Of a stretch of 64,000 nt of DNA, positions 17,601 through 60,624 are shown piece after piece (within the stretch, counting starts at the first letter, position 1; each line of letters opens with the position of its first letter). This stretch comes from Amycolatopsis sp. DSM 110486 (GTDB taxonomy: Bacteria > Actinomycetota > Actinomycetes > Mycobacteriales > Pseudonocardiaceae): assembly GCF_019468465.1 (NCBI RefSeq), contig NZ_CP080519.1, positions 6,007,001-6,071,000 on the forward strand, written 5' to 3'. The notes under the pieces are model-generated. The model was not told where the DNA came from and did no database searches. It saw only the letters and a program-made list of their open reading frames with translations. The position numbers and the translations under genes were made by a program.

Positions 17601-18653
17601 GTTCGACGCGGCGCGCGGCTGTTCTCCGCCGACCTCCAGCACGGTGATCCCGAGCCGGCCCTCCTCGGCGAGCAGCCGCGGCTCGCCCTGGGTGCCGCCG
17701 CCGTCGACCACGACCACCACGTGCGGGAGGTCCTGCGGCGTGCCCGGCCGGCGCGTGAACGCGGGACGGTCGCCCAGGTCCGGGCCCAGCAGCTCGGCCA
17801 GCTCCACCGGGCCGGACGCCACGAGCCGGCGCCGGCCCGTCGCGTCGGTCAGGGCGGGCGCCGTGGCGTGCGGCAGCCACTTCGCCCACTCCCAGTCGTG
17901 CCGCCGGTCCGGGGCCACGCAGAACGCGACGCGCAGGTCGGTGGGGGAGTGGAAGGTCACCAGCTGCGACAGCAGCGAACGCGTCATCCCGAGCACCTCG
18001 GGGCGCCGGCCCGAGAGCGTCGTCGCCGCGTACGAGCGCAGCGACACCGAAACCGGCAGGCCCTCCACAGTGGAGTACGTGCGGATGAAGTACTTGAGGT
18101 TCGTCGACGAGACCGGGTCGAGGTCCTCCAGCGGCACCGTCTGCGGCGCGCGCAACGGCGTCGCGAGCGGTTGCGGGCCGGTGGCCGCGCGCACCAGCGC
18201 GAAGTGCCGGTCGCCGCGGCGGCGATCCCAGTACTGGCCCGTCTCCACGTACGCCCACAGGTCGGCCGGGTCGGGCTGCTGCGCGATGAGCGCCGCGCGC
18301 TGCTCGTCGGCGACCGCGCGCACCTTCGTGCGCAGGCCGGCGAGGTAACGCTGGTAGTCGCGGCGCTCCTCGTTGATCTGCGCCTTCTTGGCCATCCCGC
18401 CGCGCCCGAGCGACATCACGACCATGCCGCCCATCGCGGTCACGAACAGAGCGCCGAAAATCCAGGTCATCACCCCGCCGTCGCGTCCGATGTAGACGAA
18501 CGACATCGCGCCCATGCCGAGCATCATCGGCAGGAACATCATGAGCTGGACCAGCCCGCCCGAGCCGCTCTTGGGAAGCATCGGCGGGGACTGCAACATG
18601 ATCTCCCCGGGCTGCTCGCCGAGCAGGTCCAGGCGGTCGACCGACGGGCTCAT
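14700..18653 (-). CDS. eccC: Type VII secretion ATPase EccC (FtsK/SpoIIIE family, single-chain)
   Basis: 1317 residues, the length of one-piece EccC proteins (EccCa plus EccCb fused). Two N-terminal TM helices (about residues 30-80) and a DUF region precede three tandem ATPase domains. Walker A motifs are GATGSGKSELLRT (about 480), GAPQSGKSTLLKS (about 828) and GDVEAGKSSLLRA (about 1116). Walker B is complete in domain 1 (LLVIIDEFSELL) but altered in domain 2 (FLFVDNW) and domain 3 (YVLIDDYE), as is usual. It recognises substrates through the C-terminal domains and powers export. Start ATG 18653. Divergent from the substrate operon at 18789. Confidence 0.96.
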   Translation of the reverse strand: MSPSVDRLDLLGEQPGEIMLQSPPMLPKSGSGGLVQLMMFLPMMLGMGAMSFVYIGRDGGVMTWIFGALFVTAMGGMVVMSLGRGGMAKKAQINEERRDYQRYLAGLRTKVRAVADEQRAALIAQQPDPADLWAYVETGQYWDRRRGDRHFALVRAATGPQPLATPLRAPQTVPLEDLDPVSSTNLKYFIRTYSTVEGLPVSVSLRSYAATTLSGRRPEVLGMTRSLLSQLVTFHSPTDLRVAFCVAPDRRHDWEWAKWLPHATAPALTDATGRRRLVASGPVELAELLGPDLGDRPAFTRRPGTPQDLPHVVVVVDGGGTQGEPRLLAEEGRLGITVLEVGGEQPRAASNEQLLSLHVAPDQLGMVVLDGGTEARLGFLGTPDQLDRGAAEALARTLTPLYQGTAVVSEKPMSATFGLAGLLGIGDPRDTDTTVTWAPRAARDRLRIPLGVNPEGRSVELDFKESAEGGMGPHGLVIGATGSGKSELLRTLVTALAVTHSSEKLNLALIDFKGGATFAGMTGLPHVCAVITNLSDDLTLVDRMADALNGELLRRQELLHSAGNYASVRDYEKARADGVPLQPLPSLLVIIDEFSELLSSRPEFIDLFVAIGRLGRSLGIHLLLASQRLEEGRVRGLDSHLSYRIGLRTFSASESRAVLGVADAYHLPPVPGSAYLKSDNDTLTRFKAAYVSGELPPRSTIVREDGQQVGVLPFTFEAVEVPLAASVPVAETVEKGTGETIIGAMLSRLEGRGPEAHQIWLPPLSEPPTLDQLLPPLGTDVARGLCPLGWGGNGKLTIPVALVDKPFEQRRDMLWADFSGAAGNALVVGAPQSGKSTLLKSIAAMLALTHTPSEVQLFVLDMGGGALAPIAGLPHVSGYATRRDAQRCRRVVAELTTLLEQREEFFAAQGLESMAAFRARRADLVESTDGREFGDVFLFVDNWTTIRQEYEQLEEQITGLAARGLGFGIHVIVTVNQWIGVRAQLRDAIGTRFELRLGDPADSSIDRKVALNVPADRPGRGLTADKLHFLAALPRVDGDQRPETIGAGGLDLVRRITAAWPGSRAPQVRLLPSEVPLESLPAAPSGRVVLGIAESTLRPVHLDFSSDPHFLAFGDVEAGKSSLLRAIASGISAAFTPDQALMLVGDYRRGLLGAVDQPHLLGYAGAENTLTDLVGQCATAMRNRLPGPDVTPEQLRSRSWWRGPDLYVLIDDYELVATSGKNPLLPLLEFLPQARDIGLHLIIARASGGAGRGLYEPVLQRVRELGSPGLIMSGTKEEGPLLGDVKPSPQPPGRGTLVSRRHGTGLVQVAWTKPVES

Positions 18654-18788
18654 ACCCCGTATTTTCGCCACCACCGCGGCCGTCCTGGTGGGTACTTTTG
18701 CCGTCCGCTCGCTGCCGGAAGCGCTTTTACGCTCTGCCGAGGCCACCCCCACGGGGGAGGCAGCACGCCGCACCCAGGAAGGAGAGCC

Positions 18789-19565
18789 ATGGTCACCGCG
18801 GGCGAGTACCGGGCGGAACCCGAGGCCATGCGCTCGATCGTGGGCAACGTCGGCGGCATCGTCGCCCACGGGATCAACGCGGTCGCCGACCTCGAGAAAC
18901 TCGTGGTCCAGCCGACGTCGTTCGCGGCCTTCGGCAGCGCCGTCGCGGCGGCCAACTCGGCGCTGCAGTCGACCCAGGTCACGGCCGTGCGCACGCTGTT
19001 GCAGCTGCTGCAGCAGATCAACGGCCTGGTCAAGACCAGCGCCGACGCCTACCAGGCGGCCGATGAGGCCGCGGCGAGCGGTTACGGCGGCGGCACCTCC
19101 ACGGCGGCAGCGCCCTCGTCGTCGATCTGGGGCACCCCGCACGCCGGCGAGCTGGCCACCATCGCGATCAACGACAGCGCCGGCGCCCACGGCGAGCCGA
19201 GCTCCGTCGGCAACGTGCTGCGCTATCTCGGCGACGCCGACCTCGGCAAGCTGGGCGAGCACCCGATCACCGACGCCCGCTTCCACGGCGTCGCCGACTT
19301 CAACGACTGGCTCGCCGGAGACGCCGACAACCAGGCCCGGGTCGGCCTGATCGAGGTCTACGCCGGCACCGCGCGCACCTTCGGCGACGTGCCCGGCGGC
19401 GTGCACGCGGGCGACGTCGTGGTGGTCGAACCCCTGCTGTTCGCCGACTCCGGCCCGGTGATCGGCGTGGCCGGCGACGGCGGCGCCCTCTACAACCACG
19501 GACTCGTCGACCCCGGCCTCGGCGGCCTGGCCAAGCTCAGCGTCTACCGGCCCGCATCCGTCTGA
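18789..19565 (+). CDS. Type VII secretion-associated protein with YxxxD motif
   Basis: 258 residues, preceded by a strong AGGAAGGAGAG. Residues 1-95 form an EspC/WXG100-like helical domain ending in Y-Q-A-A-D (SADAYQAADEAA), the type VII export motif. Residues ~115-258 form a separate globular domain, probably beta-rich, with VVVVEPLLFADSGPVIGVAGD near its end. No Sec signal. First gene of a rightward operon with substrates and eccD, so likely a substrate or co-substrate. A -10-like TACGCT (about 18727) is followed by a C5/G5 hairpin (18742-18761) in the leader. Confidence 0.8.
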   Translation: MVTAGEYRAEPEAMRSIVGNVGGIVAHGINAVADLEKLVVQPTSFAAFGSAVAAANSALQSTQVTAVRTLLQLLQQINGLVKTSADAYQAADEAAASGYGGGTSTAAAPSSSIWGTPHAGELATIAINDSAGAHGEPSSVGNVLRYLGDADLGKLGEHPITDARFHGVADFNDWLAGDADNQARVGLIEVYAGTARTFGDVPGGVHAGDVVVVEPLLFADSGPVIGVAGDGGALYNHGLVDPGLGGLAKLSVYRPASV

Positions 19566-19593
19566 CTCCCGACTCCCGAGCAAGTGAGGTCCG

Positions 19594-20691
19594 ATGCTGA
19601 CATTCCCGAACTCCAGCGCGATGGACGCCACGGCGTCCTCGGGCGGCCCGATCACCACGCTGCCGCAGATCGTCACCGGCCAGCCGGAGCAGATCGCGAA
19701 GCACGTGCTCGACCTGCTGCACAAGGCGAGCGAGTTCGCGTCGCTCTACACCGAGCTGAGCAAGGCGGCCGACCAGCTGGGCAAGGTCTGGTCCGGCACC
19801 GCGTCGGAGTCGGCGCTGAAGAAGATCACCGATTCGCTCGACCAGCTCACGAAGATCATCGGCGTGATCGAGAAGGGCGCGCAGCTGCTCGGCGTGTCGG
19901 GCACGCTCGTGAAGACGGCGCAGGAGGCCTACCGTTCGGTGGTCTCGGCGGTGAACCCCACCGTCGCGTCGCTCATGTCGAACTGGTGGACCTACGGCGC
20001 CGCCGTGGCACTGTCCACGGCCACGAGTGCTTCGCTGAAGGCGTTCATCACGGCGATCGGCGCGCTGCTCAAGGCGCTCGGCGCGGGTGACCTCGCGAAC
20101 CAGATCACGCAGGTCGCGCAGATCATCGGCGAGATCGAGAAGCTTTTCCACGGCGGTGACGCCGGTTCGGCCGCCGCGGCCGGCGCCACCGGCAACACGG
20201 CCGTGTCGAGCACCCCGGTCACCGCTCCGCAGGCGCCGCCGTCGGTGGCGAGCGCGGCCGGGCAGCAGACGATCGCCGGTGGCACCGGCGGCGGTGTGGG
20301 CGGTGGGGCGACGGCGCCGGCCGGGCAGCCGCCGTTCACCAACTACACGCCGCCCGCGCTGGCCGGGACCACGGGAACCACCCCGACCACACCGGTGACG
20401 GCCAACGGCACTCCGCTCGACCCGGCCAACAGCTGGATCGCCGTCGACCCGAGTACTTCGGCGCCGAGCACGACGCCGATCCAGCCCACCGCGCCCACCG
20501 CTCCGCCGGGCGGCACCGTCAGCCCGATCGCCCCCGCCGGCGCAGGAGAGGTCGTGATCCACACCGACCTGTCCACCGGCCAGTCGACCGTCGAGGCGCC
20601 CGCCGGCCAGGACCTCGACATCAACCTCGACCTCACCTACAACGGCCAGCACTTCCAGCAGCACGTCGACATCGACGCGAAGGGCGCCTAG
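19594..20691 (+). CDS. WXG-domain type VII substrate with Pro/Thr-rich linker
   Basis: 365 residues. An N-terminal helical region contains GKVWSGTASESALKK (W-S-G) at about residues 66-80, the WXG signature. Hydrophobic helices around 125-185 (YGAAVALSTATSASLKAFI) could form a pore-like or membrane-associating segment. A long Ala/Pro/Thr/Gly linker (~200-310) follows, then a small beta domain (VVIHTDLSTGQSTVEAP, DINLDLTYNGQ). No Sec signal. It sits 28 bases after the previous gene and three before the next. It is an exported protein of unknown role. Confidence 0.8.
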   Translation: MLTFPNSSAMDATASSGGPITTLPQIVTGQPEQIAKHVLDLLHKASEFASLYTELSKAADQLGKVWSGTASESALKKITDSLDQLTKIIGVIEKGAQLLGVSGTLVKTAQEAYRSVVSAVNPTVASLMSNWWTYGAAVALSTATSASLKAFITAIGALLKALGAGDLANQITQVAQIIGEIEKLFHGGDAGSAAAAGATGNTAVSSTPVTAPQAPPSVASAAGQQTIAGGTGGGVGGGATAPAGQPPFTNYTPPALAGTTGTTPTTPVTANGTPLDPANSWIAVDPSTSAPSTTPIQPTAPTAPPGGTVSPIAPAGAGEVVIHTDLSTGQSTVEAPAGQDLDINLDLTYNGQHFQQHVDIDAKGA

Positions 20692-32178: not shown

Positions 32179-32552
32179 CCCTCCCGGCCTCGGCTCTCCC
32201 CTCGCCCCCCAACGCGGCATTGGTTGCGCTCAACGCACCGAACGCCACATTGGGGCGCTCTGGCCCCACCAAACCGCCGCCCGCCTGCCCAACTGACCAT
32301 GCACCCTGGCCGCGTCCACCCTCACGACCGCCGCCCACCCACGCAGCGGAACCCTGCACCCAGACCCGCCCCGGCACCCCGATCCGAAGCCTTCTTGCGG
32401 ACGGCTCACCGGCCGTCAACACAATCCAGCTTCGGGGTGCACACCCCACGCAACACGCCCCCGCGAGGACCGCATCCCCCGCACAGCCTCACGCAACACG
32501 CCCTGCGAGGACCAGAAACCGCACCCACCGCAACACGCCCCACGAAGGACCT
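32179..32552. repeat. Gene-free intergenic region with two imperfect repeat families
   Basis: No gene is supported in these 374 bases. Two related 20-base units start at 32211 and 32241 (AACGC..CATTGG core). Three copies of GCAACACGCCC followed by a GCGAGGACC-like element begin near 32450, 32493 and 32530, spaced 43 and 37 bases apart. They look like short intergenic repeats of the kind scattered in actinomycete genomes; no coding or tRNA-like structure seen. Confidence 0.5.
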
Positions 32553-36468
<3,916 letters not shown>

Positions 36469-49392: not shown

Positions 49393-49833
49393 ATGGACGA
49401 CGAGGTGCTCGAGTGGGTCGAGCGGGTCGCGGACTTCCTCACGCAGGAGTACGGCCTGCCGCCGATCGCCGGGCGCGTGCTCGGCTGGCTGATGGCGTGC
49501 GACCCGCCGGAGCAGTCGGCGGCGCGGCTGGCCGAGGCGGTGGGCGCGAGCCGCGCGTCGCTCACGACCAACCTGCGGTTGCTGCTCGACGCCGGGCTGG
49601 TCGGCAAACGGCTCGGCCGCGGCGAGCGCACCGCCTACTACCGCGTGGACGATGACGCGTGGCAACGCGTGATCCGCCGCCGCATCGCCACGCTGGGCTC
49701 GTTCCGCGACATCACGAACGCCGGCATCGAGCTGCTCGAACGCGACGGCGCCCGGGCGGCGCGCGTCCGCAGTGCCGACGCGGCGTTCGCGTGGCTGGCC
49801 GAAGCGTTCGCGGAAGCCGGCGAGCCGAAGTGA
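49393..49833 (+). CDS. MarR/GbsR-like winged-helix regulator
   Basis: 146 residues from ATG 49393; a TATGCT -10-like element (49380-49385) lies seven bases upstream, so this start is preferred to ATG 49381. Winged helix: GLPPIAGRVLGWLMACDPPE, then ARLAEAVGASRASLTTNLRLLLDAGL and a wing with KRLGRGERTAYYRV, typical of GbsR/MarR repressors. The C-terminus is a dimerising helix. Overlaps the monooxygenase GTG by four bases, so it probably controls that gene. Confidence 0.88.
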   Translation: MDDEVLEWVERVADFLTQEYGLPPIAGRVLGWLMACDPPEQSAARLAEAVGASRASLTTNLRLLLDAGLVGKRLGRGERTAYYRVDDDAWQRVIRRRIATLGSFRDITNAGIELLERDGARAARVRSADAAFAWLAEAFAEAGEPK

Positions 49834-50915
49834 AGGCTGTGGTGGTGGGCGGTGGGATCGGCGGGCTGACGGCCGCGATCGCGTTGCGCCGCACCGGACA
49901 CGAGGTCACAGTGCTGGAGCGCGCGCCCGAGCTGCGGGAGATCGGGGTCGGGCTTTCCCTGGCGCCCAACGCGATGCGGGCGCTCGACGCGCTGGGGATC
50001 GGGGAGCGGGTGCGGAAGCACTCGGCTCCGTCGGAGGTTACGGGCACACTGCGGACGTCGTCGGGCCGGTTCCTGCGCCGGTTCCGGGAGGGGCGGGACG
50101 AGCCGCTCGCCGCGTTCCACCGCGCGGAGCTGCACTCGGCTTTGCTGGCGGAGCTGCCGGAAACCTTGGTGCGCACAGGGATTGAAGTAACTGATCCATC
50201 CGAAGTGGACGCGGACGTGATTGTGGCGGCCGACGGTGTCCACAGTGGATTCCGCTGCCGGGCATTCCCTGGCGCACCCGAACCGGGGTTTCGCTACACG
50301 GCCTGGCGTGGCGTCACCGAACCGGGTGCGGCGCCGCCGGTGCGCGGCAGCTTCACCATGGGCCGCGGCGCGTACTTCATGATCCACCCGCTGCCCGGCG
50401 ACCGCGCCTGCTGGGCCCTCGGCGCCGCCGAGTCCACGCCCGGCGTGCGCTACCCGAGCGAGCACGCCGAGGTGACCCGCCGCGTGGCGGACTGGCCGGC
50501 CGAGGCCCGCGAGCTCGTGGCGGCGACGCGGCCGGACGCCGTGCTGCACAACGACATCCTCGACCTCGACCCGCTGCCCGCGTTCACGAGCGGACGCGTC
50601 GCGCTGCTCGGTGACGCGGCTCACGCCGTGCCGCCGGACCTCGGCCAGGGCGCGTGCCAGGCGATCGAGGACGCCGTGGTCCTCGCCGCATCGCTGCGGG
50701 CCCACCCCGTGCCCGAGGCGCTCGCCGCATACGACGCCGCGCGCCGCCCGCGTGCGGCGTACGTCACGAAGCAGGCGCGCAGCAAGGCGGCGGCCGACAC
50801 GGCGTCGGCGTGGTGGCTGCACGCGCTGCTGGCGGTGACCGTGCCGCTGATGCCCGCGTCGGTGATCCGGCGCCAGGCCGCGCCCTTGTGGGACTGGACT
50901 CCGCCCGTCCTCTGA
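49830..50915 (+). CDS. FAD-dependent aromatic-type monooxygenase
   Basis: 361 residues from GTG 49830, overlapping the regulator stop. Class A flavoprotein monooxygenase: [20 protein letters not shown] (FAD ADP site), [12 protein letters not shown] (second motif), and [20 protein letters not shown] (flavin ribityl site) in the right order; no separate NADPH domain is needed in this class. Substrate unknown; may hydroxylate a phenolic compound that also acts on the MarR-like regulator. Confidence 0.92.
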
Positions 50916-50961
50916 GCACCTGTGCGCCGACCGGGCGGGCGGACCGTCGCAGGTGGACGGC

Positions 50962-50967
50962 TACGCT
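50962..50967 (+). promoter_or_regulatory. -10 element of leaderless hisF promoter
   Basis: TACGCT lies six bases before the hisF ATG without a ribosome site. Confidence 0.6.
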
Positions 50968-50973
50968 GGTGGC

Positions 50974-51747
50974 ATGGCTGTGGCGGTGAGGGTGATCCCG
51001 TGTCTGGACGTCGACGCGGGTCGCGTGGTGAAGGGCGTCAACTTCGCCGATCTGCGCGACGCCGGCGACCCGGTGGAGCTGGCCCGGCTGTATGACCACG
51101 AAGGCGCCGACGAGCTGACTTTCCTCGACGTCACCGCGTCGTCGGGCAACCGCGAGACCACCTTCGACGTGGTCCGCCGCACGGCCGAGCAGGTCTTCAT
51201 CCCGCTGACGGTCGGCGGCGGCGTGCGCTCCAACGACGACGTCAACCGCCTGCTGCGCACGGGCGCAGACAAGGTGAGCATCAACACGGCCGCGATCGCG
51301 CGCCCGGAGCTGCTGCGCGAGGCGTCGCGCCGGTTCGGGGCCCAGTGCATCGTGCTGTCGGTCGACGCGCGGCGCGTGCCGGAGGGCGGCGAGCCGACGG
51401 CGTCGGGCTTCGAGGTGACCACCCACGGCGGGCGCCGCGGCACGGGCATCGACGCGGTCGAGTGGGCGGCGCGCGGCGAGGAGCTGGGCGTCGGCGAGAT
51501 CCTGCTCAACTCGATGGACGCCGACGGCACCAAGTCCGGCTTCGATCTTTCCTTGATCGAGATGGTCCGCCGCGCCGTGCGCGTGCCGGTGATCGCCAGC
51601 GGCGGCGCGGGCGCCGTCGACCACTTCCTGCCCGCCGTGGAGGCCGGTGCGGACGCGGTGCTCGCGGCGAGCGTGTTCCACTTCGGACAGCTGAAGATCG
51701 GCGACGTCAAGGGCGCCCTGCGCGAAGGCGGGGTCATCGTCCGATGA
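50974..51747 (+). CDS. hisF: Imidazole glycerol phosphate synthase cyclase subunit HisF
   Basis: 257 residues, barrel enzyme that uses HisH-derived ammonia to form imidazole glycerol phosphate and AICAR. Catalytic motifs: [15 protein letters not shown] (first Asp), [26 protein letters not shown] (second Asp) and [15 protein letters not shown] 50974 agrees with the leaderless promoter; an in-frame start at 50953 is in the promoter. Overlaps hisI by four bases. Confidence 0.97.
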
Positions 51748-52109
51748 GCCTCGACGCAGACCTGTCCCAGCGGCTCAAGCGCAACTCCGACGGCCTGATC
51801 GCGGCCGTCGTCGTGGAGCACTCGACGTCCGACGTGCTGATGATGGCCTGGATGAACGACGAGGCCCTGGAGTCCACCCTCACCACCCGGCGCGCGACCT
51901 ACTGGTCCCGCAGCCGCCAGGAGCTGTGGGTGAAGGGCGAGACCTCGGGCCACGTCCAGCACGTCCGCGAAGTGCGGATCGACTGCGACGGTGACACAGT
52001 GCTCCTGCGCGTGGACCAGACCGGCCCGGCCTGCCACACGGGCACCCACACCTGTTTCGACTCCGCGGAGCGCCTGCTCCTCGCCGACGAGAGTGAGAAC
52101 ACCCCGTGA
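51744..52109 (+). CDS. hisI: Phosphoribosyl-AMP cyclohydrolase HisI
   Basis: 121 residues; opens the adenine ring of PR-AMP. Zinc/magnesium ligands in [18 protein letters not shown] and [11 protein letters not shown], with [25 protein letters not shown] at the substrate site. Monofunctional, with no HisE domain. Overlaps hisF upstream and the DUF1304-type gene downstream by four bases each. Confidence 0.97.
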
Positions 52110-52468
52110 CGGTTGTCGCGAACGTGCTGGTGGGGCTGGTCGCCCTCATCCACGTATACATCGTGGTGCTCGAAATGTTCCTCTGGACGACCCCGCGCGC
52201 CCGCGCGGCGTTCGGCACCACCGAGGCGTTCGCGCAGGAGAGCAAGGCGCTCGCCGCGAACCAGGGGCTCTACAACGGTTTCCTCGCGGCGGCCCTGATC
52301 TGGGGCCTCATCGCGACCGACCCGACGGGCTTCCAGTTCAAGCTCTACGGCCTGGCCTGCGTGATCGTCGCCGGCCTGTACGGCGCCGCGACGGCCTCGA
52401 AGCGGATCCTGCTGGTGCAGGTGCTGCCGGGCGTCCTCGCGCTGGTGTTCGTGCTGCTGGCGCGCTGA
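52106..52468 (+). CDS. DUF1304-family membrane protein
   Basis: 120 residues from GTG 52106. Four TM helices: [52 protein letters not shown], and [26 protein letters not shown] after helix 1 is the family signature. Function unknown. Tail of the hisFI operon; its stop overlaps the CTG proposed as start of DUF3592 copy A. Confidence 0.85.
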
Positions 52469-53205
52469 CCGCCGACCTGGCCCGCGAGACGCGGCGGCTG
52501 CGTGCCGTCGCCTGGCGGGCGTGGGCGCTCGCCGCGGTGTGGTGCTTGGTTTCCGCGGGCGGGCTCATCGCGGTGCTGGGCGTCCTCCACTCGGCGGACA
52601 CCCTGCTGGCGACCGGCACGCGCGTGCCGGGGACGGTCGTTTCCGTCGCCACTCCGCCGAAGGGCACGCGCTGGATCGACGTGTCCTACCGTGCCGACGG
52701 CCGCACGCTGACCGAACGCGTCGACCGCAGCTCCACGGCCGCCTACACCCCGGGCGAGCGCGTGACGGTGGTCTTCGACCCGGCCGACCCGGCGCGCGTC
52801 CGCACGACCGCCGAGGACGGCCTGAGCGAGAACGGCCTTGGCTTCGCCTGGATCGGCGTCGGCCTGGTCCTGCTGTGCTCCCTGGTCGCCGCGGCGGGCG
52901 CCGTCGGCTGGTCCCGCCGCTCCCGCGCCGTGCGCCGCACGGGCTGGCAGGAGGGCACGGCCACCGTCGTCCTCGCGCCCTTCACCGGCCGTGGCGTGAA
53001 CCCGCCGTACTTGCACGTGCGCCCGCTTTCCGGCGAGGCCGTGCGCCTGCGCGCCGTGCCGTCCACCCACGGCGCCCGCTTCCTGCGCACCTACACCGAC
53101 CGCCCCGCCTGGCTGGGCGGCACCGGGTCCGCGTCGGTGATCCTCTTCCGCCACGGCTGCGGCGAAGCGCCGTACGCCGTGCCGGCCGTGGTCGCGCGCG
53201 GGTGA
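52465..53205 (+). CDS. DUF3592-like membrane protein, array copy A (no standard start codon)
   Basis: 246 residues if read from CTG 52465, whose CTGA overlaps the previous stop exactly as ATGA/GTGA do elsewhere here. No ATG, GTG or TTG exists in frame between the upstream gene and GTG 52537, which would cut into the first TM helix. Layout: charged N-terminus, TM 1 (AVWCLVSAGGLIAVLGVL), extracytoplasmic domain ending VVFDPADPARVRTT, TM 2 (WIGVGLVLLCSLVAAAGAV), basic patch RRSRAVRRTGW, then a C-terminal domain. First of seven paralogs; function unknown. Confidence 0.75.
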   Translation: MTADLARETRRLRAVAWRAWALAAVWCLVSAGGLIAVLGVLHSADTLLATGTRVPGTVVSVATPPKGTRWIDVSYRADGRTLTERVDRSSTAAYTPGERVTVVFDPADPARVRTTAEDGLSENGLGFAWIGVGLVLLCSLVAAAGAVGWSRRSRAVRRTGWQEGTATVVLAPFTGRGVNPPYLHVRPLSGEAVRLRAVPSTHGARFLRTYTDRPAWLGGTGSASVILFRHGCGEAPYAVPAVVARG

Positions 53206-53228
53206 GCCGAAACGCCGGACGGTCCCGT

Positions 53229-53308
53229 TCGGTTGCCTTCGTCGGCGGTGGTTTCGATCGCAGCTTTTCCCCTGGTGGAGCGCGATTTCCCGGTCGTACC
53301 CTCTCCTG
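53229..53308 (+). repeat. Duplicated leader/promoter, copy 1 (before paralog B)
   Basis: Closely matches 55064-55147: shared TCGGTTGCCTTC, ATCGCAGCTTTT, CTGGTGGA and GATTTCCCGGTCGTAC, ending in TACCCT (53297-53302) six bases before ATG 53309. The copies lie 1.84 kb apart, so promoter and N-terminus were duplicated together. Confidence 0.75.
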
Positions 53309-54218
53309 ATGGACCTGGGGAGGACCGGCCGGAGCGAACGCCCCGGCGGTGACGACGACCAGTCTCTTCCGGTGGACCGGGCCAACGCCGTGGTCCGCCT
53401 CGGCCGGGCCGGGGCGACGCCGATGAGCGGGCCGGCGCGGCCTCGCAAACAGCCGCGAGCACCGGCGGGCCAAGCGGCTTGCGGAGCAGCAGCGGAAGTG
53501 GGACGGCGCGGTCCACCGCCGGTTCCGGCGTTCCGTGCGGACCGCCGTGGCGTGGCTGGTCGTGCTGCTCACCGGGGGCACCGGTGTCCTGCTGACGGGC
53601 TTCGCCGGCGAAGCGCTCCTGACCCGCGGCGCCCGCGCGGACGGCGAGGTGACGGCCGTGAGCGAAGAGGTCGTGATCGTCGACTACGTGGTCACCGGGG
53701 TGAGCCTGCGCGCGGTGATCGACCACATCTCCGACCACCGGTACGTCGCGGGGGAGACCGTGCCGGTGTTCTACGACCCCGCCGACCCGCACACCGCGCG
53801 CCTGCGCGACGACGTGAACCTGAGCCTCGGGATGATGGCGCCGTCCCTCCTCCTCGTCCTCACGAGCCTGGCCGCGATCCCGATCGAGGTCGCCTACGTG
53901 GTGGGCTGGGCCCGCCGCCGAGGCTCGCCCTGGTACCCCGCCACGGCGATCGTCCTGCCCCTGAGACTGCGCCCCGACGCCCCGGAGGTGTTCCACACAC
54001 TGGAGTTCGTCCTCCCCGGCGGCGTCACCATCGAGGCGAAGACCACCTCCGTCCTGCCCCGCCGGTACGCGTTCCTCCGCCACCGTGGCCGGCGAGAGGT
54101 GTGGGTCTCCGGTTCCGGCCGCACGCTCGCCGTGGTCCTGCCCGTCGGCCCCCGCGACGGCGAGCCGTCCGCGATCCCGTTTCGCCTGGCGTCCACCTCG
54201 AAGTGGACGCTCGCCTGA
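53309..54218 (+). pseudogene. DUF3592 array copy B, frameshifted near the N-terminus
   Basis: The leaderless ATG 53309 begins MDLGRTGRSERPGGDDDQSLP, matching intact copy D, but that frame soon diverges. From about 53470 homology continues in the next frame: KRLAEQQRKWDGAVHRRFRR, TM 1 (AVAWLVVLLTGGTGVLL), VPVFYDPADPHTARL, TM 2, VVGWARRRG and the C-terminal domain to the TGA at 54216. A one-base insertion (or two-base loss) between 53427 and 53470 explains this. GTG 53535 could start a shortened product lacking the N-terminal basic segment. Confidence 0.75.
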
Positions 54219-54247
54219 ACCACGCGCCGCTGTCGTACGCTTTGGCC

Positions 54248-55030
54248 GTGGCCCTGGGGAAGACCAACGAAAACGCCGGCGAACCGCTTCGTGCGGCCGC
54301 GGACTCCGCGTCCGAGGACCGCGCGCTGCGCCGGCAGTTCTGACGGGCCGTCGGCTGGGCCGTGCCGTGCGCGCTGGTCGTGCCGGCGTCGGCACTGGGC
54401 ATCGGGTGGCAGGACCTGCGCGCCGACTGGCTCCTCGACCACGGCGACGAGGCCACCGGCAAGGTCGTGGCGGTCCACACGCCCCGGGACGGCGACGGCA
54501 CGCCCACCATCACGGTCTCCTACACCGCCGCCGGCGTCCCCGAACAGGCCGAGATCAACCGCGACTCCGACCGCGAATACGAAGTGGGCGAACCGATCTC
54601 GGTGTTCTACGACCCCGCCGACCCGGCCCGTGTGCGCACCGAAGACGAACAGAACGTCGGCGACGGGTGGATGGCGGTGTTCTCGGTCCCGCTGATCTTC
54701 GTGGCGATTCTCCTGCCGTTGACGATCACCCTCGCCGTGGGCTGGGCGCGTCGCCGCCGGCTCGCCCGCCGCACGGGTTGGCGGCCCGTCCGCATCCAGG
54801 CCCACGATCGCGCCGACCACGCGCAGGTCGTCCGCTTCACCGTCGGCGGCCGGCGGGTCGTCGCCCGTACGACGTCGCTGACGCGCGTGCTTCGTGAGGG
54901 GAGCCGCCGGGCCGGCGCGAGGGTCGCGGGGTCGGGCCTCCGGTTCGTTTTGGTGCTGCCCCGCGGTTCCCGCCGCGGCGGGCCACGCGTGGTGGCCTTG
55001 CGCGCGTTCGATCCCCGCCGCGGCGGGTGA
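54248..55030 (+). pseudogene. DUF3592 array copy C with in-frame TGA
   Basis: TACGCT (54236-54241) precedes GTG 54248 by six bases, again leaderless. The frame reads MALGKTNENAGEP, EDRALRRQF, then TGA at 54341-54343 exactly where paralogs have Trp (RFW), and continues without a shift: TM 1, DWLLDHGDEATGKVVAVHTP, INRDSDREYEVGEPISVFYD, PADPARVRTEDEQN, TM 2, VGWARRRRLARRTGW and a C-terminal domain to 55030. A single TGG to TGA change fits. GTG 54362 might allow a truncated product. Confidence 0.75.
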
Positions 55031-55063
55031 CTGCCGAGGGGACCGTCAGCACGCTCGATGGGC

Positions 55064-55147
55064 CCTCTCGGTTGCCTTCCCGGCCGGTGTTCTGAATCGC
55101 AGCTTTTTAGCTGGTGGAACGAGATTTCCCGGTCGTACGCTCTCCTG
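55064..55147 (+). repeat. Duplicated leader/promoter, copy 2 (before paralog D)
   Basis: Second copy of the leader described at 53229-53308; TACGCT (55136-55141) lies six bases before ATG 55148, so copy D is probably transcribed as a leaderless mRNA and heads the D-E-F-G unit. Confidence 0.75.
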
Positions 55148-55966
55148 ATGGATCTGGGGATGACCGGCGCGGGCGAAACCCCGCGCCAAGAAGACGACGA
55201 ACCTCTCCCAGCCCGCACCGGGCGGCTGCCGAAGCCGGACCCGGTGATCTTGGACCGGGCCGTGCGCTCGCGGATCTGGCACGCCCTCGGCGCGGCCGCG
55301 CTGTGGGTCCTCGTGGTGGCCGCGACGATCGTCGGCTCGTCCGTGCTCTTCGACCGGGCGGACCGCCTGCTCACGGACGGGGTGAAGGTGCCCGCGCGAG
55401 TGGTCGCCGTGGAGGACGGGAAAACCGGGGCCTATCTCGTCGTGGACTACCTGGCACCGGGCGTCGAAGGCAGGATCGACCTCGACTCCGGTAACCGGTA
55501 CTTCGTCGGCGAAGTCCTGACGGTGTACTACGACCCGGCCGATCCGGCGCACGTGCGCACCACGGAAGAGCCCAACGGCGACGACTCCTGGGCCTTGGGC
55601 TCGGTCGTCGTGGTCGTTCTCGAGGCGGGCGCGCTCTCGTGGGCCGTGGCGTACCCGGTCGTCCTGGACCGGCGCCGGCGGATCGCGCGCCGCTCCGGGT
55701 GGCGACCGGTCAAGGTCACGTCCCTGCGCAACGGCACGTACGTCCTGAACCACGCCGGCCGCGAACGGACGTCGGCCCGCGTCGTCACGCTGCTGCGCGG
55801 TCGTTACGAGTACTTGGCCAAGCAGCCCGTCTCCGCCTGGGTAGCCGGCGAAGGCGCCCGCCTGCTCCTCGTGGCCCCGCGCGGCAACCGCCTCTACGCC
55901 ATCCCCCTCGGCCGCAGCCCCGGCTGGTCCCCGATCCTGCCGCCACGCCGGGGACGGAGCCGATGA
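55148..55966 (+). CDS. DUF3592-like membrane protein, array copy D (intact)
   Basis: 272 residues. N-terminal acidic/basic cytoplasmic segment (MDLGMTGAGETPRQEDDEPL), ILDRAVRSRIW, TM 1 (ALGAAALWVLVVAATIVGSS), extracytoplasmic beta domain (ARVVAVEDGKTGAYLVVDY, YFVGEVLTVYYDPADPAHV), TM 2 (about 150-172), DRRRRIARRSGWRPVKVTS and a C-terminal domain ending LVAPRGNRLYAIPLG. The YDPADP turn is the DUF3592 signature. Function unknown. The stop overlaps the ATG of copy E. Confidence 0.85.
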   Translation: MDLGMTGAGETPRQEDDEPLPARTGRLPKPDPVILDRAVRSRIWHALGAAALWVLVVAATIVGSSVLFDRADRLLTDGVKVPARVVAVEDGKTGAYLVVDYLAPGVEGRIDLDSGNRYFVGEVLTVYYDPADPAHVRTTEEPNGDDSWALGSVVVVVLEAGALSWAVAYPVVLDRRRRIARRSGWRPVKVTSLRNGTYVLNHAGRERTSARVVTLLRGRYEYLAKQPVSAWVAGEGARLLLVAPRGNRLYAIPLGRSPGWSPILPPRRGRSR

Positions 55967-56710
55967 CCGGGGGACCGGACCCGGCCGCGTTGAACCGCGC
56001 GGTACGCCTGCGGATCCGGCGCGCCGTGGCAGCCGCGGTGCTGTGGGCGCTCGGCGGCGGCGGTGGGGCCTCTCGGGGCGCAGCTGGTGGATGCGTTGTC
56101 CGACGCGCTTCTCGGGCAGTGGGTGGCCGTGCCCGCGCGGGTGACCGCGGTCGACGACCACCCGCTGCGCGGATCCCCGTACCTCGCGGTGGACTACCTC
56201 GGCTGGGGGACGGCCCGGCAGGCGACGATCGACCACGACTCCGACACGCGGTACTTCGTCGGCGAAGTCCTGACGGTGTACTACGACCCGGCCGACCCCG
56301 GGCGTGCCCGGACCGACGACGACCGCAACGACGGTTTCGCGCTCGCGCTGCTGGGCGGCGTGACCCTCTGCTCGCTGTGCTGCCTCCCGTGGGCGGTGGT
56401 GTTTCCCGTGCTCCTGGCACTGCGCCACCGGGCCGCCCGCCGCTCCGGCTGGGAGCCGGTCGAGGTCACCGCGTTCAGCGACGGGTCGCTGGTGCTCGCC
56501 GGCCGGGAGCGCACGGCGACCGGCACCAGCACGGTCACCCGCCGCCGTTGCCCGTACCTCGAAGGAAAACCCTCCCGAGGCTGGGTCGCCGGCGAAGGCC
56601 GGCGCCTGGTCCTGGTGATCCCGCGGGGCACGGGCCCGTTCGCGATCCCGCTTCGCCGCCTCAAACTCCAGCCGCGGAAAACCCCAGGGGGACAGCACGA
56701 TGGTCGCTGA
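55963..56710 (+). pseudogene. DUF3592 array copy E, frameshifted in TM 1
   Basis: ATG 55963 overlaps the copy D stop and reads MTGGPDPAALNRAVRLRIRR, AVAAAVLWALGGGG. Within the GGC-repeat/GGGG tract at about 56054-56066 homology moves to the next frame (VGPLGAQLVDALSDALLGQW), then VPARVTAVDD, YFVGEVLTVYYDPADPGRAR, TM 2, RHRAARRSGWEPVEVTA and the C-terminal domain to 56710. The shift lies in a simple-sequence tract, so slippage (mutation, phase variation or sequencing error) should be considered. GTG 56063 could start a product missing TM 1. Confidence 0.72.
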
Positions 56711-57524
56711 AGACCAGCCCGCGAGACGGCCGCGCGCCAAACGGCATCGCCACCAAACCCGCCGGCAACGCGCCGAACGGGGACCCGCCGACCCCACGGG
56801 GTGGGATCGCGCGCTGCGCAAGCGGTTCTGGCGCGCGGCCGCCGCGGCGACGGCGTGGTTCCTGATCATCCCGGTGGCGGTCACCGTGATTTCCTTGCTG
56901 CACAACAGGTCCACCTGGCTGCTCGACCACGGCACGAAGGTCGAGGGGCGCGTGGTCGCCGTGTACACCCCGGCGCGGGGCGCGCCGACCGTCACCGTGG
57001 ACTACCCCGTCGGCGACGTCCTCGCACAAGCGGTGATCAACCGCGACTCGGACGACGACTACGTCGAGAACGAGCGCGTCCAGGTCTACTACGACCCGGC
57101 CGATCCGCAGCGCGTGCGGACCGACGACGAGGAGAACGTCACCAACGCGGGGATGGCTTTCGCCGTGATCCCGATGCTCGTGGCCTTGCTCGTCTTCCCG
57201 TGGCTGATCGCGTACACGCTGGGCTGGGCCCGCCGGCGCCGATGCGCCCGCAAGTCGGGCTGGGAACCCGTCACCGCCGTCGTTTTCGACTCCTCGGGTG
57301 GCTACCAGCTCCTGCGCCTCGACTTCCCCGATGGCCGGCGGCTCGCCGCCCGCACCGTGGCGGCGCTGCGCGGGCGCTACTCCTTCCTTCGCAACGGGCC
57401 GGTCGAAGCGTGGGTCTCCGGCGAAGGCCGCCGCTTCACCCTCGCGCCGCCACACCACGCGAAGGGGCCCTACGTGATCCCCCTGCGCGTCCCGCGCGGA
57501 TCACGATGGCCGGCCGGCCGATGA
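56700..57524 (+). CDS. DUF3592-like membrane protein, array copy F (intact)
   Basis: 274 residues; ATG 56700 follows AGGGGGA and overlaps the end of copy E by 11 bases. Basic N-terminus (ARRPRAKRHRHQTRRQRAER), WDRALRKRFWRA, TM 1 (TAWFLIIPVAVTVISLL), WLLDHGTKVEGRVVAVYTP, INRDSDDDYVENERVQVYYD, PADPQRVRTDDEEN, TM 2 (FAVIPMLVALLVFPWLIA), LGWARRRRCARKSGWEPV, C-terminal domain ending PYVIPLRVPRGSRWPAGR. The best reference copy for the family in this window. Stop overlaps copy G. Confidence 0.87.
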   Translation: MVAEDQPARRPRAKRHRHQTRRQRAERGPADPTGWDRALRKRFWRAAAAATAWFLIIPVAVTVISLLHNRSTWLLDHGTKVEGRVVAVYTPARGAPTVTVDYPVGDVLAQAVINRDSDDDYVENERVQVYYDPADPQRVRTDDEENVTNAGMAFAVIPMLVALLVFPWLIAYTLGWARRRRCARKSGWEPVTAVVFDSSGGYQLLRLDFPDGRRLAARTVAALRGRYSFLRNGPVEAWVSGEGRRFTLAPPHHAKGPYVIPLRVPRGSRWPAGR

Positions 57525-58278
57525 GCCCCGAAGCGGACGAGACAGCCTGGAACCGCGTGCTGCGCAGGCGATCGTGCCGATCCGTCGCAGCCGCCTTCTT
57601 CTGGCTCCTCGTCCTGGCTTCGACGGTGGGCGGCATGATCGCCCTGGACGCTTCCGCGGACGCGCTGCTCGTGAGCGGGATGCGCGCGGTCGGCCGGGTG
57701 GTCGGCGTCGCGGACCCGCGCCGAGGGACGCCGACCATCACCGTGGACTACACCGTGGGTGTCACGCCCCGGGAAGCCGTCGTCAACCGGGACTCCGGGC
57801 TGGCCTAGCACGTGGGGGATCTCGTGTGGGTCTACTACGACCCGGTCGATCCGCAGCACGTGCGCACGGCCGAAGAGCGCAACCACAGCGACGCCTGGAA
57901 GTGGGGCCTGGTCTCCCCGGCGCTCGTGGCGCTGGTCTTCTTCCCCTGGGGCACGGTGTTCGCGGTGCGCTGGGTCCGCCGGTGGCGTGCGGCCCGGCGG
58001 TCGAGCTGGGTGCCCGTCACGGTGACCGACGCGACGCCCGAAGCGGCGCACCAGGCGCTGGCTCTCAAGGTCAACGACGCGGGGCGGCTGAGGGTCCGGA
58101 CCCTCTCGATGCTGCCCGGCCGCTACACCTTCCTGCAGGGCCCCGAACCGACGCGAGCATGGATCGGCGGCGCGGGCTCGGCCACGGTCCTCGTGCTCGC
58201 CCGGGGCCGCGCAGAGCCCGTCCCTGCCCGATCCCGGTCCGCCCGCAGCTGGGCTGGACCTGGCCGGCCGGCCGGTGA
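57521..58278 (+). pseudogene. DUF3592 array copy G with in-frame TAG and 3' frameshift
   Basis: ATG 57521 overlaps the copy F stop: SPEADETAWNRVLRRRSCR, TM 1, GRVVGVADPRRGTPTITVDY, VVNRDSGLA then TAG at 57806-57808 where paralogs have Tyr, then HVGDLVWVYYDPVDPQHVR in the same frame, TM 2 and the RRSSW patch. Near 58210 the conserved ending (PCPIPVRPQLGWTWPAGR, stop 58276-58278) is in another frame, so a second lesion exists. Two independent hits make this a true pseudogene rather than a recoded gene. Confidence 0.8.
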
Positions 58279-58356: not shown

Positions 58357-58965
58357 CTAAAGCCCCAGATCCCCCGTCAGATACCGCTGCAGGTTCGGCG
58401 CGATCGCCGTCACGAGCGTTTCGACTTCGGCCGACGCGATCGGCTCGAAGCGGGCGATGTAGCGGACCATGCCGAGCCCCACGACCTGCGAGGCGCACAG
58501 CGTGGTCCGCAGCCCGGGCTGGTCGGAGCCGATGTGGCCGATCACCTCGGCGAAGAACAGCGAGAAGAAGTCCCGCAGCACGGTCGCGGCCAGCTCGTGG
58601 CCCGCGACGCTGCGGATGAGTGCCTGGAACGTGTCGCCGCCGGCGCCGTCCCAGCGGGTGACGAAGACGCGGACGATCCGTTCGCCCAGCTTGTCGTCGG
58701 GGCCGTCGCGCAGGGTCGCGAGCAGTTCGTGCGGGGAGAACGGCAGCTCCAGCACGGCCTGGGCGAACAGGCCCTCCTTGCCGCCGAACCAGTGGTTGAC
58801 CATGGCCGCGTCGACGCCGGCGCGCGCGGCGATCGCGCGCACAGTGGCGCGTTCGTAGCCGTGTTCCGCGAACACCGCGCGCGCGGCCTCGATCAAGGCG
58901 GTCCGGGTGTCCTGCCCGGCGGGCCGGCGGCCGCGCCTGCGGGAGGTAGTGTCTTCGGTGCTCAC
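58357..58965 (-). CDS. TetR-family transcriptional regulator
   Basis: 202 residues from GTG 58965. HTH: TRTALIEAARAVFAEHGYER, then ATVRAIAARAGVDAAMVNHWFGGKEGLF, with W-F-G replacing the commoner Y-Y-H-F. A long helical ligand domain follows (FQALIRSVAGHELAATVLRD), of the TetR_C type found in several actinobacterial regulators. CATAGT (58972-58977, minus strand) is six bases before GTG, so leaderless; the -35 TTGAAT lies inside the 32-bp operator, implying autorepression. Confidence 0.9.
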   Translation of the reverse strand: MSTEDTTSRRRGRRPAGQDTRTALIEAARAVFAEHGYERATVRAIAARAGVDAAMVNHWFGGKEGLFAQAVLELPFSPHELLATLRDGPDDKLGERIVRVFVTRWDGAGGDTFQALIRSVAGHELAATVLRDFFSLFFAEVIGHIGSDQPGLRTTLCASQVVGLGMVRYIARFEPIASAEVETLVTAIAPNLQRYLTGDLGL

Positions 58966-58987
58966 GGGTCCACTATGACTCGTCGCC

Positions 58988-59019
58988 CCCTTGAATTCAA
59001 CAGGTGCTGAATTCAAGGG
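58988..59019. promoter_or_regulatory. 32-bp palindromic TetR operator
   Basis: Perfect 12-base arms CCCTTGAATTCA and TGAATTCAAGGG around an eight-base spacer. It covers the -35 (minus-strand TTGAAT, 58995-59000) of the adjacent tetR gene, 17 bases from its -10. It also lies 43 bases before trpE, so it might influence that promoter. Confidence 0.75.
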
Positions 59020-59061
59020 CCGCCCAAGGTCCGCCGAGGCCCGCGCGGCACAATGGGGCCC

Positions 59062-60624
59062 ATGGTCAGCTCAGCAGCCGGCAAATCCACCGGGCCCGGC
59101 CCGGTCAGCCCCTCGCGCGCCGAGTTCCGCGCCCTCGCCGAAGGCCGCCGCGTGATCCCCGTGGTGCGCAAGGTCCTCGCCGACGGGGAGACCCCGCTCG
59201 GGATCTACCGCAAGCTCGGTGCCGACCGGCCCGGCACGTTCCTGTTCGAGTCGGCGGAGAACGGCAAGTCGTGGTCGCGCTGGTCGTTCGTGGGCGTGCG
59301 CAGCCCGGCCGCGCTGACCGTGCGCGACGGCAAGGCCGTGTGGACCGGCACGCCGCCCGTCGGCCTGCCCACCGAAGGCGACCCGCTGCAGGTGCTGCGC
59401 GCCACCGTCGAGGCGCTGCACACCGAGCCGCTGCCGGGCCTGCCGCCGTTGACCGGCGGCATGGTGGGCTACATCGGCTACGACGCCGTGCGGTGGCTGG
59501 AGAAGCTGCCCGAGCTCGCCGAGCGCGACCTCGACATCCCCGAGCTGACCATGCTCCTGGCCACCGACCTCGCGGCGTTCGACCACCACGAGGGCACCGT
59601 CACGCTGATCGCCAACGCGGTCAACTGGGACGACTCGCCCGAGCGCGTGGACGCCGCCTACGACAGCGCGCTGGAGCGCCTGTCGGCGATGACCGAGCAG
59701 CTGCGCGTGCCCGCGCCGCCGACCGTCGCGACGTTCGACCGGCCGGCGCCGGAGTTCAAGCGCCGCCGCACGAAGGAAGACTTCCACGCCGCCGTCGACA
59801 AGGCCGTGGAAGCGATCAAGGCCGGCGAAGCGTTTCAGGTCGTGCCCTCGCAACGCTTCGAGATCGAAACCGGCGCCGACGCGCTCGACGTCTACCGCGT
59901 GCTGCGCAACTCCAACCCGAGCCCGTACATGTACCTGCTGCGGCTGGAGGGCTTCGACATCGTCGGCTCCAGCCCCGAGTCGCTGGTCACCGTGCGCGAC
60001 GGCCGAGCGACCACGCACCCCATCGCGGGCACGCGCTGGCGCGGCGCCGACCCGGAGGAGGACGCGCAGCTGGCCAAAGACCTGCTGGCCGACGAGAAGG
60101 AACGCGCCGAGCACCTCATGCTCGTCGACCTCGGCCGCAACGACCTGGGCAAGGTCTGCCGCCCCGGCAGCGTGCACGTGGTCGACTTCTTCCAGATCGA
60201 GCGCTACAGCCACGTGATGCACATCGTGTCCACCGTCACCGGTGAGCTGGCCGAGGGCAAGACGGCGTTCGACGCGGTCACCGCCTGCTTCCCGGCCGGC
60301 ACGCTTTCGGGCGCGCCCAAGGTGCGCGCGATGCAGCTGATCGAGGAGCTCGAGCCCGTGCGCCGTGCCCTGTACGGCGGCGTCGTCGGCTACCTCGACT
60401 TCGCGGGCGACGCCGACACGGCCATCGCCATCCGCACCGCCCTGATGCGCGACGGCGTGGCCTACGTCCAGGCCGGCGGCGGCGTGGTCGCCGACTCCGT
60501 AGCCGACTACGAGGACACCGAGTCGCTCAACAAGGCGCGCACGGTGCTCTCGGCCGTCGCGGCGGCCCAGACCATGGTCCCCGCGGGCGAGCTCGATCCA
60601 GCCGAGGATTCCGCCGGTGTCTGA
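59062..60624 (+). CDS. trpE: Anthranilate synthase component I TrpE
   Basis: 520 residues. Converts chorismate and ammonia to anthranilate. Chorismate-utilising core: [22 protein letters not shown] [72 protein letters not shown] and [15 protein letters not shown] 59062 is preferred over ATG 59053 because CACAAT (59049-59054) sits seven bases upstream in leaderless fashion. The partner TrpG is not in this window. No Trp-codon leader is seen before it. Confidence 0.96.

Follow-up and report, generated by a model that had tools for sequence, protein, structure and literature searches.

A tandem array of DUF3592-like genes in Amycolatopsis sp. DSM 110486 and its probable birth-and-death turnover at a fixed his-trp slot

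Seven tandem homologues at one chromosomal site

The window analyzed here is a 64,000-nucleotide stretch of the 10.98-Mb genome of Amycolatopsis sp. DSM 110486 (contig NZ_CP080519.1, positions 6,007,001 to 6,071,000), and our subject is an array of seven tandem genes, copies A to G, on its plus strand (52465-58278). This array very probably reflects birth-and-death turnover of a gene family at one fixed slot, and it is the most expanded of the 63 loci examined. The nearest relatives compared are other members of Amycolatopsis. Their slots hold zero to four profile-hit groups in 62 genomes, against seven copies here, and the lesions differ between strains, which bears out the turnover proposed in an initial annotation of this DNA. 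In the mechanism that we propose, founding copies would often bring their own start-proximal TANNNT box, so that a duplicated copy would be born expressible. Copies would then diverge quickly after duplication, and they may be lost through single nonsense or frame changes, deletions that fuse neighbors, a short inversion, or emptying of the slot. The process is an ordinary evolutionary one at an unusually clear genus-wide site. A row of damaged genes thereby becomes a defined site, with the same anchors in 62 genomes and intact single-copy versions in relatives.

The seven consecutive homologous copies of the initial annotation hold up in both pairwise and profile comparisons. Using the open pieces as input, BLASTP matched 20 of the 21 pairs at E<=1e-3, with E-values from 5.5e-8 to 3.6e-52 and 29-51% identity in the aligned parts, and a profile search also gave hits. 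Only the A-G pair lacked a BLASTP match at this threshold, with G represented by its 3' piece. These identities and E-values indicate that the copies are neither chance resemblances nor recent duplicates.

The same slot across Amycolatopsis

The order along the his-trp stretch is hisF-hisI-DUF1304-[array A to G]-TetR-trpE. The genes that frame the array, with their occurrence at the 62 other loci, are as follows.

50953..51747, plus strand: left anchor of the variable site, which we take to be hisF from its sequence and gene order; in order at 62/62 other loci
51744..52109, plus strand: left anchor, presumably hisI; in order at 62/62 other loci
52106..52468, plus strand: DUF1304 small membrane protein (Pfam PF06993, E 7.5e-44), whose stop codon bounds the slot on the left
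58357..59016, minus strand: TetR-family regulator (Pfam TetR_N 3.3e-15, TetR_C_16 3.4e-32), right border of the slot; at 61/62 other loci
59053..60624, plus strand: right anchor, which from its sequence we take to be trpE; at 61/62 other loci

A DUF1304 match is present in 65 of 80 genus genomes, our own included. The slot was examined in 62 of the 64 other genomes with DUF1304, leaving out G016 and G018, where DUF1304 lies at contig ends, and omitting the 15 genus genomes that have no DUF1304 match. DUF1304 follows hisF and hisI at all 62 loci, and the one locus without TetR and trpE is cut by a contig end. The slot is at most 150 bp long in 11 of the 62 genomes. Profile-hit groups per slot number 0 in 18 genomes, 1 in 20, 2 in 11, 3 in 8 and 4 in 5, counts that include fragments, such that one broken copy may count more than once. 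Of the hits in these slots, 41 are full, 14 are fragments and 31 are short ones that leave the outer domain unmatched. Copy number, which the initial annotation had proposed to compare across related strains, therefore varies, and the seven copies here are the maximum among the 63 loci. None of the 41 full copies elsewhere was flagged for want of an upstream in-frame start. In the window, B and C were; A avoided the flag only because its frame runs open into the preceding gene. On a TrpE tree of 62 rows, slot presence and absence requires 8 changes, at least 5 of which are forced by well-supported branches, and gains of slot copies are not distinguishable from losses on this tree.

Named matches of the protein searches are all from Amycolatopsis (one search scored the best 7997 candidates). 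A profile search of 150 genomes of the taxonomic family gave matches in 26, across 12 of 46 genera, and a scan of genome contigs with F returned 32 pattern matches and no relative. Other genes also occur within the slot. Clusters of helix-turn-helix (HTH) genes lie inside it at 13 of the 62 other loci, with a DUF397-like gene at three of them; genes shorter than 60 aa were not called in this count. The insert at these loci is a minus-strand HTH-DUF5753 regulator, for example at L119:2564-3597 (array orientation), where the HTH/DUF397-like pair was confirmed by Pfam. At one further locus, an IS4/5-family transposase is inserted in the slot (L094:1862-2764, array orientation).

Intact and damaged copies

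The seven copies are described below; TM1 and TM2 denote the first and second transmembrane (TM) segments.

52465..53205, plus strand: copy A, a DUF3592 gene truncated at its 5' end, with 246 open codons and no ATG, GTG or TTG at its beginning (Pfam 8.3e-9)
53309..54218, plus strand: copy B, whose ATG frame departs from the body frame after about 53440; the body is open from GTG 53535 (227 aa; Pfam 1.9e-6)
54248..55030, plus strand: copy C, with an in-frame TGA at 54341-54343 in TM1; its G010 orthologue is open (77% aa identity)
55148..55966, plus strand: copy D, intact, 272 aa, open end to end; groups with P0014 and P0015
55963..56710, plus strand: copy E, whose ATG overlaps the D stop; frame change at about 56046-56075 in TM1, body open from 56063
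56700..57524, plus strand: copy F, intact, 274 aa, open end to end, its start overlapping the end of E; 86% identical to the G010 copy and 61% to the G056 copy
57521..58278, plus strand: copy G, whose ATG overlaps the F stop; TAG at 57806-57808 and a 3' frame change near 58205-58230

Only D and F can be called intact with certainty in this strain; the state of B is uncertain, and the other four copies are truncated or damaged. The initial annotation had already called D and F intact, E frameshifted, and G interrupted by a TAG at a conserved Tyr and by a 3' frameshift. All of these calls stand, and the Tyr in G is nearly invariant. The E orthologue P0013 (90% aa identity) is open at the lesion of the window's E, yet changes frame at its own 3' end. 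Since the starts of E, F and G each overlap the 3' end of the preceding gene, D-E-F-G may be read as a coupled operon.

Other calls hold in part. Copy A indeed has no standard start, but this is explained by 5' truncation. Long forms elsewhere carry about 95-115 extra residues, with further hydrophobic stretches, ahead of a '(V)DFDxETARLR' segment, and A starts at this segment, directly behind the DUF1304 stop, with an identical junction in G056. Because A begins where the N-terminal block of the long forms ends, we read it as a 5'-truncated remnant and not as an odd-start gene. Likewise, the common layout claimed for all seven copies is upheld as far as their homology goes, but A is without the N-terminal layout. 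A CTG start was rejected as a meaningful feature of A, as the CGCTGA end of DUF1304 is common to genomes with and without A. In copy B, the frame from ATG 53309 disagrees with the body frame, as expected of the frameshift that had been called, but GTG 53535 could still serve as a start. It would keep TM1, the homologues P0007 and P0009 are equally short, and a B product might be made from it. The GTG start of C agrees with those of its orthologues P0010 and P0011. The TGA described at a conserved Trp of C is present, but the residue is Trp in the G010 and P0010 orthologues and Arg in P0011, and across the family it is Trp in only 6 of the 13 rows having a letter, with Arg or His among the others. 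A code reading TGA as Trp was rejected for C, as nothing supports it and the position is not even conserved as Trp.

Old duplications and strain-specific damage

In a tree of 61 copies, one clade (100/99) unites B to G with copies from G010, G056 and further named strains. Copy A joins its G056 counterpart (100/100) within the genus-wide copies, a deeper placing with weak support (84/47). Orthologues from other strains accompany each of C, D, E and F in this tree, and B and G stand without a close partner among the sequences used. Orthologues across strains are closer than paralogues within a strain for five copies (A, C, D, E and F). Since C, D, E and F have orthologues of their own, their duplications predate the strains.

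Pseudogenes with lineage-specific lesions were observed, and no lesion is common to strains. In G010, F is joined out of frame to G. In G056, copy A carries a 77-bp in-place inversion near its 3' end relative to the window (L037:5877-5953, array orientation), breaking the frame. The E orthologue of NPDC049253 is open at the window's lesion and changes frame at its own 3' end. The recent decay suggested in the initial annotation is thus borne out, as lesions differ between strains and the C and E orthologues are open at the damaged place. These results together support old duplications followed by recent, strain-specific damage. Lineage-specific birth-and-death arrays are a familiar class of loci, and this array resembles them in its tandem paralogues, old duplications, differing retention between strains and recent lesions. 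It differs in that the slot is fixed genus-wide, many copies have a start-proximal promoter box, and the family is without an assigned function.

Using the Nei-Gojobori method, we found a median ratio of nonsynonymous to synonymous substitution (dN/dS) of 0.50 for 16 copy pairs, with a range of 0.26-0.95. Medians for neighboring genes, obtained in the same way from 14 genome pairs, are 0.039 for hisF, 0.065 for hisI, 0.091 for TrpE, 0.173 for DUF1304, 0.181 for the membrane gene after trpE and 0.315 for TetR (up to 0.51). By these estimates, the family evolves several times faster than most of its neighbors. Elsewhere in the window, an unrelated reading frame of 845 aa (32220-34757) has a high dN/dS against G010 (0.113/0.165).

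Sequencing error as a possible source of the lesions

The lesions could also be sequencing or assembly errors, with all seven genes intact in the cell; we consider this very improbable. In its favor, the E lesion lies in a GC-repeat stretch. However, C and G are interrupted by single-codon stops rather than indels, the copies are too divergent for assembly confusion, and relatives carry lesions of their own. As a control, window genes were compared with G010, G056 and G068, and reciprocally the genes of these genomes with the window. Across the rest of the window, neighboring genes have no clear window-side break against the three relatives, with two places unresolved. Of 37 G010 genes with a match of at least 75%, 27 are whole in the window. 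The ten that were flagged are two array copies, four over-extended starts, one gene at the window edge, one (49659-50915) that is broken in G010 but open in the window, and two within the gene at 14700-19724. For G056, 24 of 29 genes are whole, and for G068, 27 of 29, the rest being edge, start-extension or partial alignments. The remaining G056/G068 flag is a short 90% match with a stop at 35014-35463, probably an antisense frame. On these neighbor-gene comparisons, assembly error was rejected as a general cause. Sequencing error in general appears an unlikely origin of the lesions, and, judging from sequence comparison, we treat those of the array as real.

The gene at 14700-19724 on the minus strand is itself an open frame of 1674 aa whose alignment to G010 is broken into pieces.

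A proposed reservoir and exchange between copies

The initial annotation had offered, next to recent decay, the idea that the copies are used as a reservoir. In this scenario, silent damaged copies would feed an expressed copy by gene conversion, in the style of pilin or vls systems. We find next to no probability for it. D and E have an exact run of 47 bp in common and B and C one of 26 bp, lengths that were each reached in 0 of 1000 codon shuffles; for D and F the run is 21 bp, reached in 8 of 1000. Short conversion tracts between copies are possible. Yet these runs lie in the most conserved motif (YYDPADP), and they are the only three exact runs of at least 18 bp among the copies. With 29-51% identity and a longest exact run of 47 bp, the array differs from pilS/vls-type reservoirs in having no near-identical tracts between silent and expressed copies. 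Moreover, C, D, E and F are closer to orthologues elsewhere than to their paralogues, and several copies have a promoter-like box of their own. The reservoir claim is therefore not borne out, and birth-and-death turnover remains our preferred reading.

Promoter-like boxes at copy starts

Promoter-like boxes lie directly ahead of three starts in the array.

53294..53311, plus strand: TACCCT promoter-like box and ATG of copy B
54233..54250, plus strand: TACGCT promoter-like box and GTG of copy C
55133..55150, plus strand: TACGCT promoter-like box and ATG of copy D

The start regions of B (53212-53370) and D (55051-55209) are 77% identical over 159 bp. Among genus copies with a family-type N-terminus (37 copies without such a start were set aside before the count), a TANNNT box lies 4-9 nt ahead of a start candidate in 34 of 52, as against 92 of 10,400 random slot positions (0.9%). 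These two results support the copied promoters of the initial annotation. Leaderless promoters of actinobacteria have their box this near the start, and the boxes found here are predicted to be promoters of that type. A first, stricter promoter pattern matched more often on the reverse strand (21 times, against 3) and was replaced by the start-anchored test.

Protein family and predicted fold

The description of the copies as DUF3592-like was evaluated with Pfam PF12158, whose cut-off is 25.3 bits. It holds for A (36.4 bits), B (28.9), C (39.9) and E (27.6), but D (20.8) and F (20.4) fall below the cut-off although both are plain homologues of the other copies; G was not listed. The array family and DUF3592 have in common the outer beta domain ending in YDPADP, recognized above the cut-off in A, B, C and E, and public records label most named relatives DUF3592 proteins. 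In contrast, the Pfam model does not cover the second beta domain of the array family, after TM2, or the extra N-terminal part of many genus members.

We consider an inner-membrane protein the most likely product, with TM1, an outer OB-like DUF3592 domain, TM2 and a cytoplasmic OB-like domain in a topology predicted from the positive-inside rule. The OB-like fold of both domains is weakly supported. Foldseek searches with the whole model and with the C-terminal model gave no match at E <= 0.001, and a PDB sequence search returned five matches with E of only 0.4 to 0.95. When the two beta domains were compared as profiles in search of an internal repeat, E was 0.006 but the probability 2.6%. 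NCBIfam had nothing for the window copies and gave two sub-threshold matches to one long form. The term DUF3592 is almost absent from the literature searched, occurring in 1 of 5.39 million papers, and a literature search on DUF1304, bacterial birth-and-death arrays and DUF397 was without result. As a working guess, the family may provide an envelope-facing accessory protein that is needed only under changing conditions.

Short family members (L099, L104, L106, L109, L110, L113, L115, L117 and others), often located beside full ones, are matched in their helices and C-terminal domain and not in the DUF3592 domain. Two of them were scanned with Pfam, one giving no match and the other a sub-threshold match to DUF4064.

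A possible conflict-related role

The initial annotation had also linked such arrays to surface or conflict-related proteins, and either function is putative here. A conflict-related membrane family, for immunity or defence, could be kept diverse by an arms race, and the damaged copies would then be its discarded side; we hold this to be unlikely. It would fit the high dN/dS of the copies, with its median of 0.50 and values up to 0.95, and the differences in copy number between genomes. It would also fit the HTH clusters and the three DUF397-like genes within other slots, as HTH/DUF397 is treated as a likely toxin-antitoxin pair in PMC7159879. However, no copy pair has a dN/dS above 1, and PADLOC matched none of 5 proteins among 5027 models. 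The presumed outer domain is also not the most variable part. Identity by region over 15 orthologue pairs is 0.76 in TM1, 0.80 in the outer domain, 0.77 in TM2 and 0.83 in the C-terminal domain, indicating no hypervariable outer face. Finally, beside the copies at other chromosomal sites (12 loci), no toxin-like partner was recognized by eye. Polyimmunity or orphan-immunity arrays are known systems in which, as here, divergent paralogues are arrayed at one site and turn over rapidly. The present array differs from them in that no toxin gene was recognized, no known immunity family was matched, and the products would be membrane proteins of an unassigned family. A conflict role of the array proteins is possible but unsupported.

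Slot DNA at other chromosomal sites

Blocks of slot DNA are also found elsewhere. In our own genome, 2.8 Mb away, a degenerate block (L038:3081-4748, about 8827080-8828747) aligns with the G056 slot at 78% and 69% identity, over a stretch running from the end of A to a point inside TetR. This block retains the end of an A-like copy and a piece of TetR, together with a shortened copy resembling F and another resembling the third copy of G056. In G066, a block near 9934742 (L026:1392-2705) contains one whole copy and the last 32 residues of TetR, and is 83-87% identical to the his-trp slots of G041, G025 and G040. These two blocks indicate at least two transfers of slot DNA, cut inside TetR, to other places.

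A wider reading would draw these observations together. The slot might be a genus-wide turnover site for a new conflict- or environment-facing inner-membrane family, with two units of a TM segment and an OB-like barrel per protein and each copy a module with its own leaderless promoter. Such a site would take up HTH/DUF397 cassettes and export blocks, as in this genome and G066. We put this forward as a speculative proposal that is probably wrong in this full form.

TetR-family genes were identified by Pfam beside copies at two further sites (L032:786-1355 and L035:2673-3272), and L148:828-1355 and L153:2307-2504 match the slot's TetR at 32% and 42%. TetR genes are common in such genomes, so their presence beside copies at other sites may be due to chance; a regulatory link between TetR and these copies is possible. 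Some of the sites recur, as L009 and L011 are the same site in different genomes, and likewise L028 and L030.

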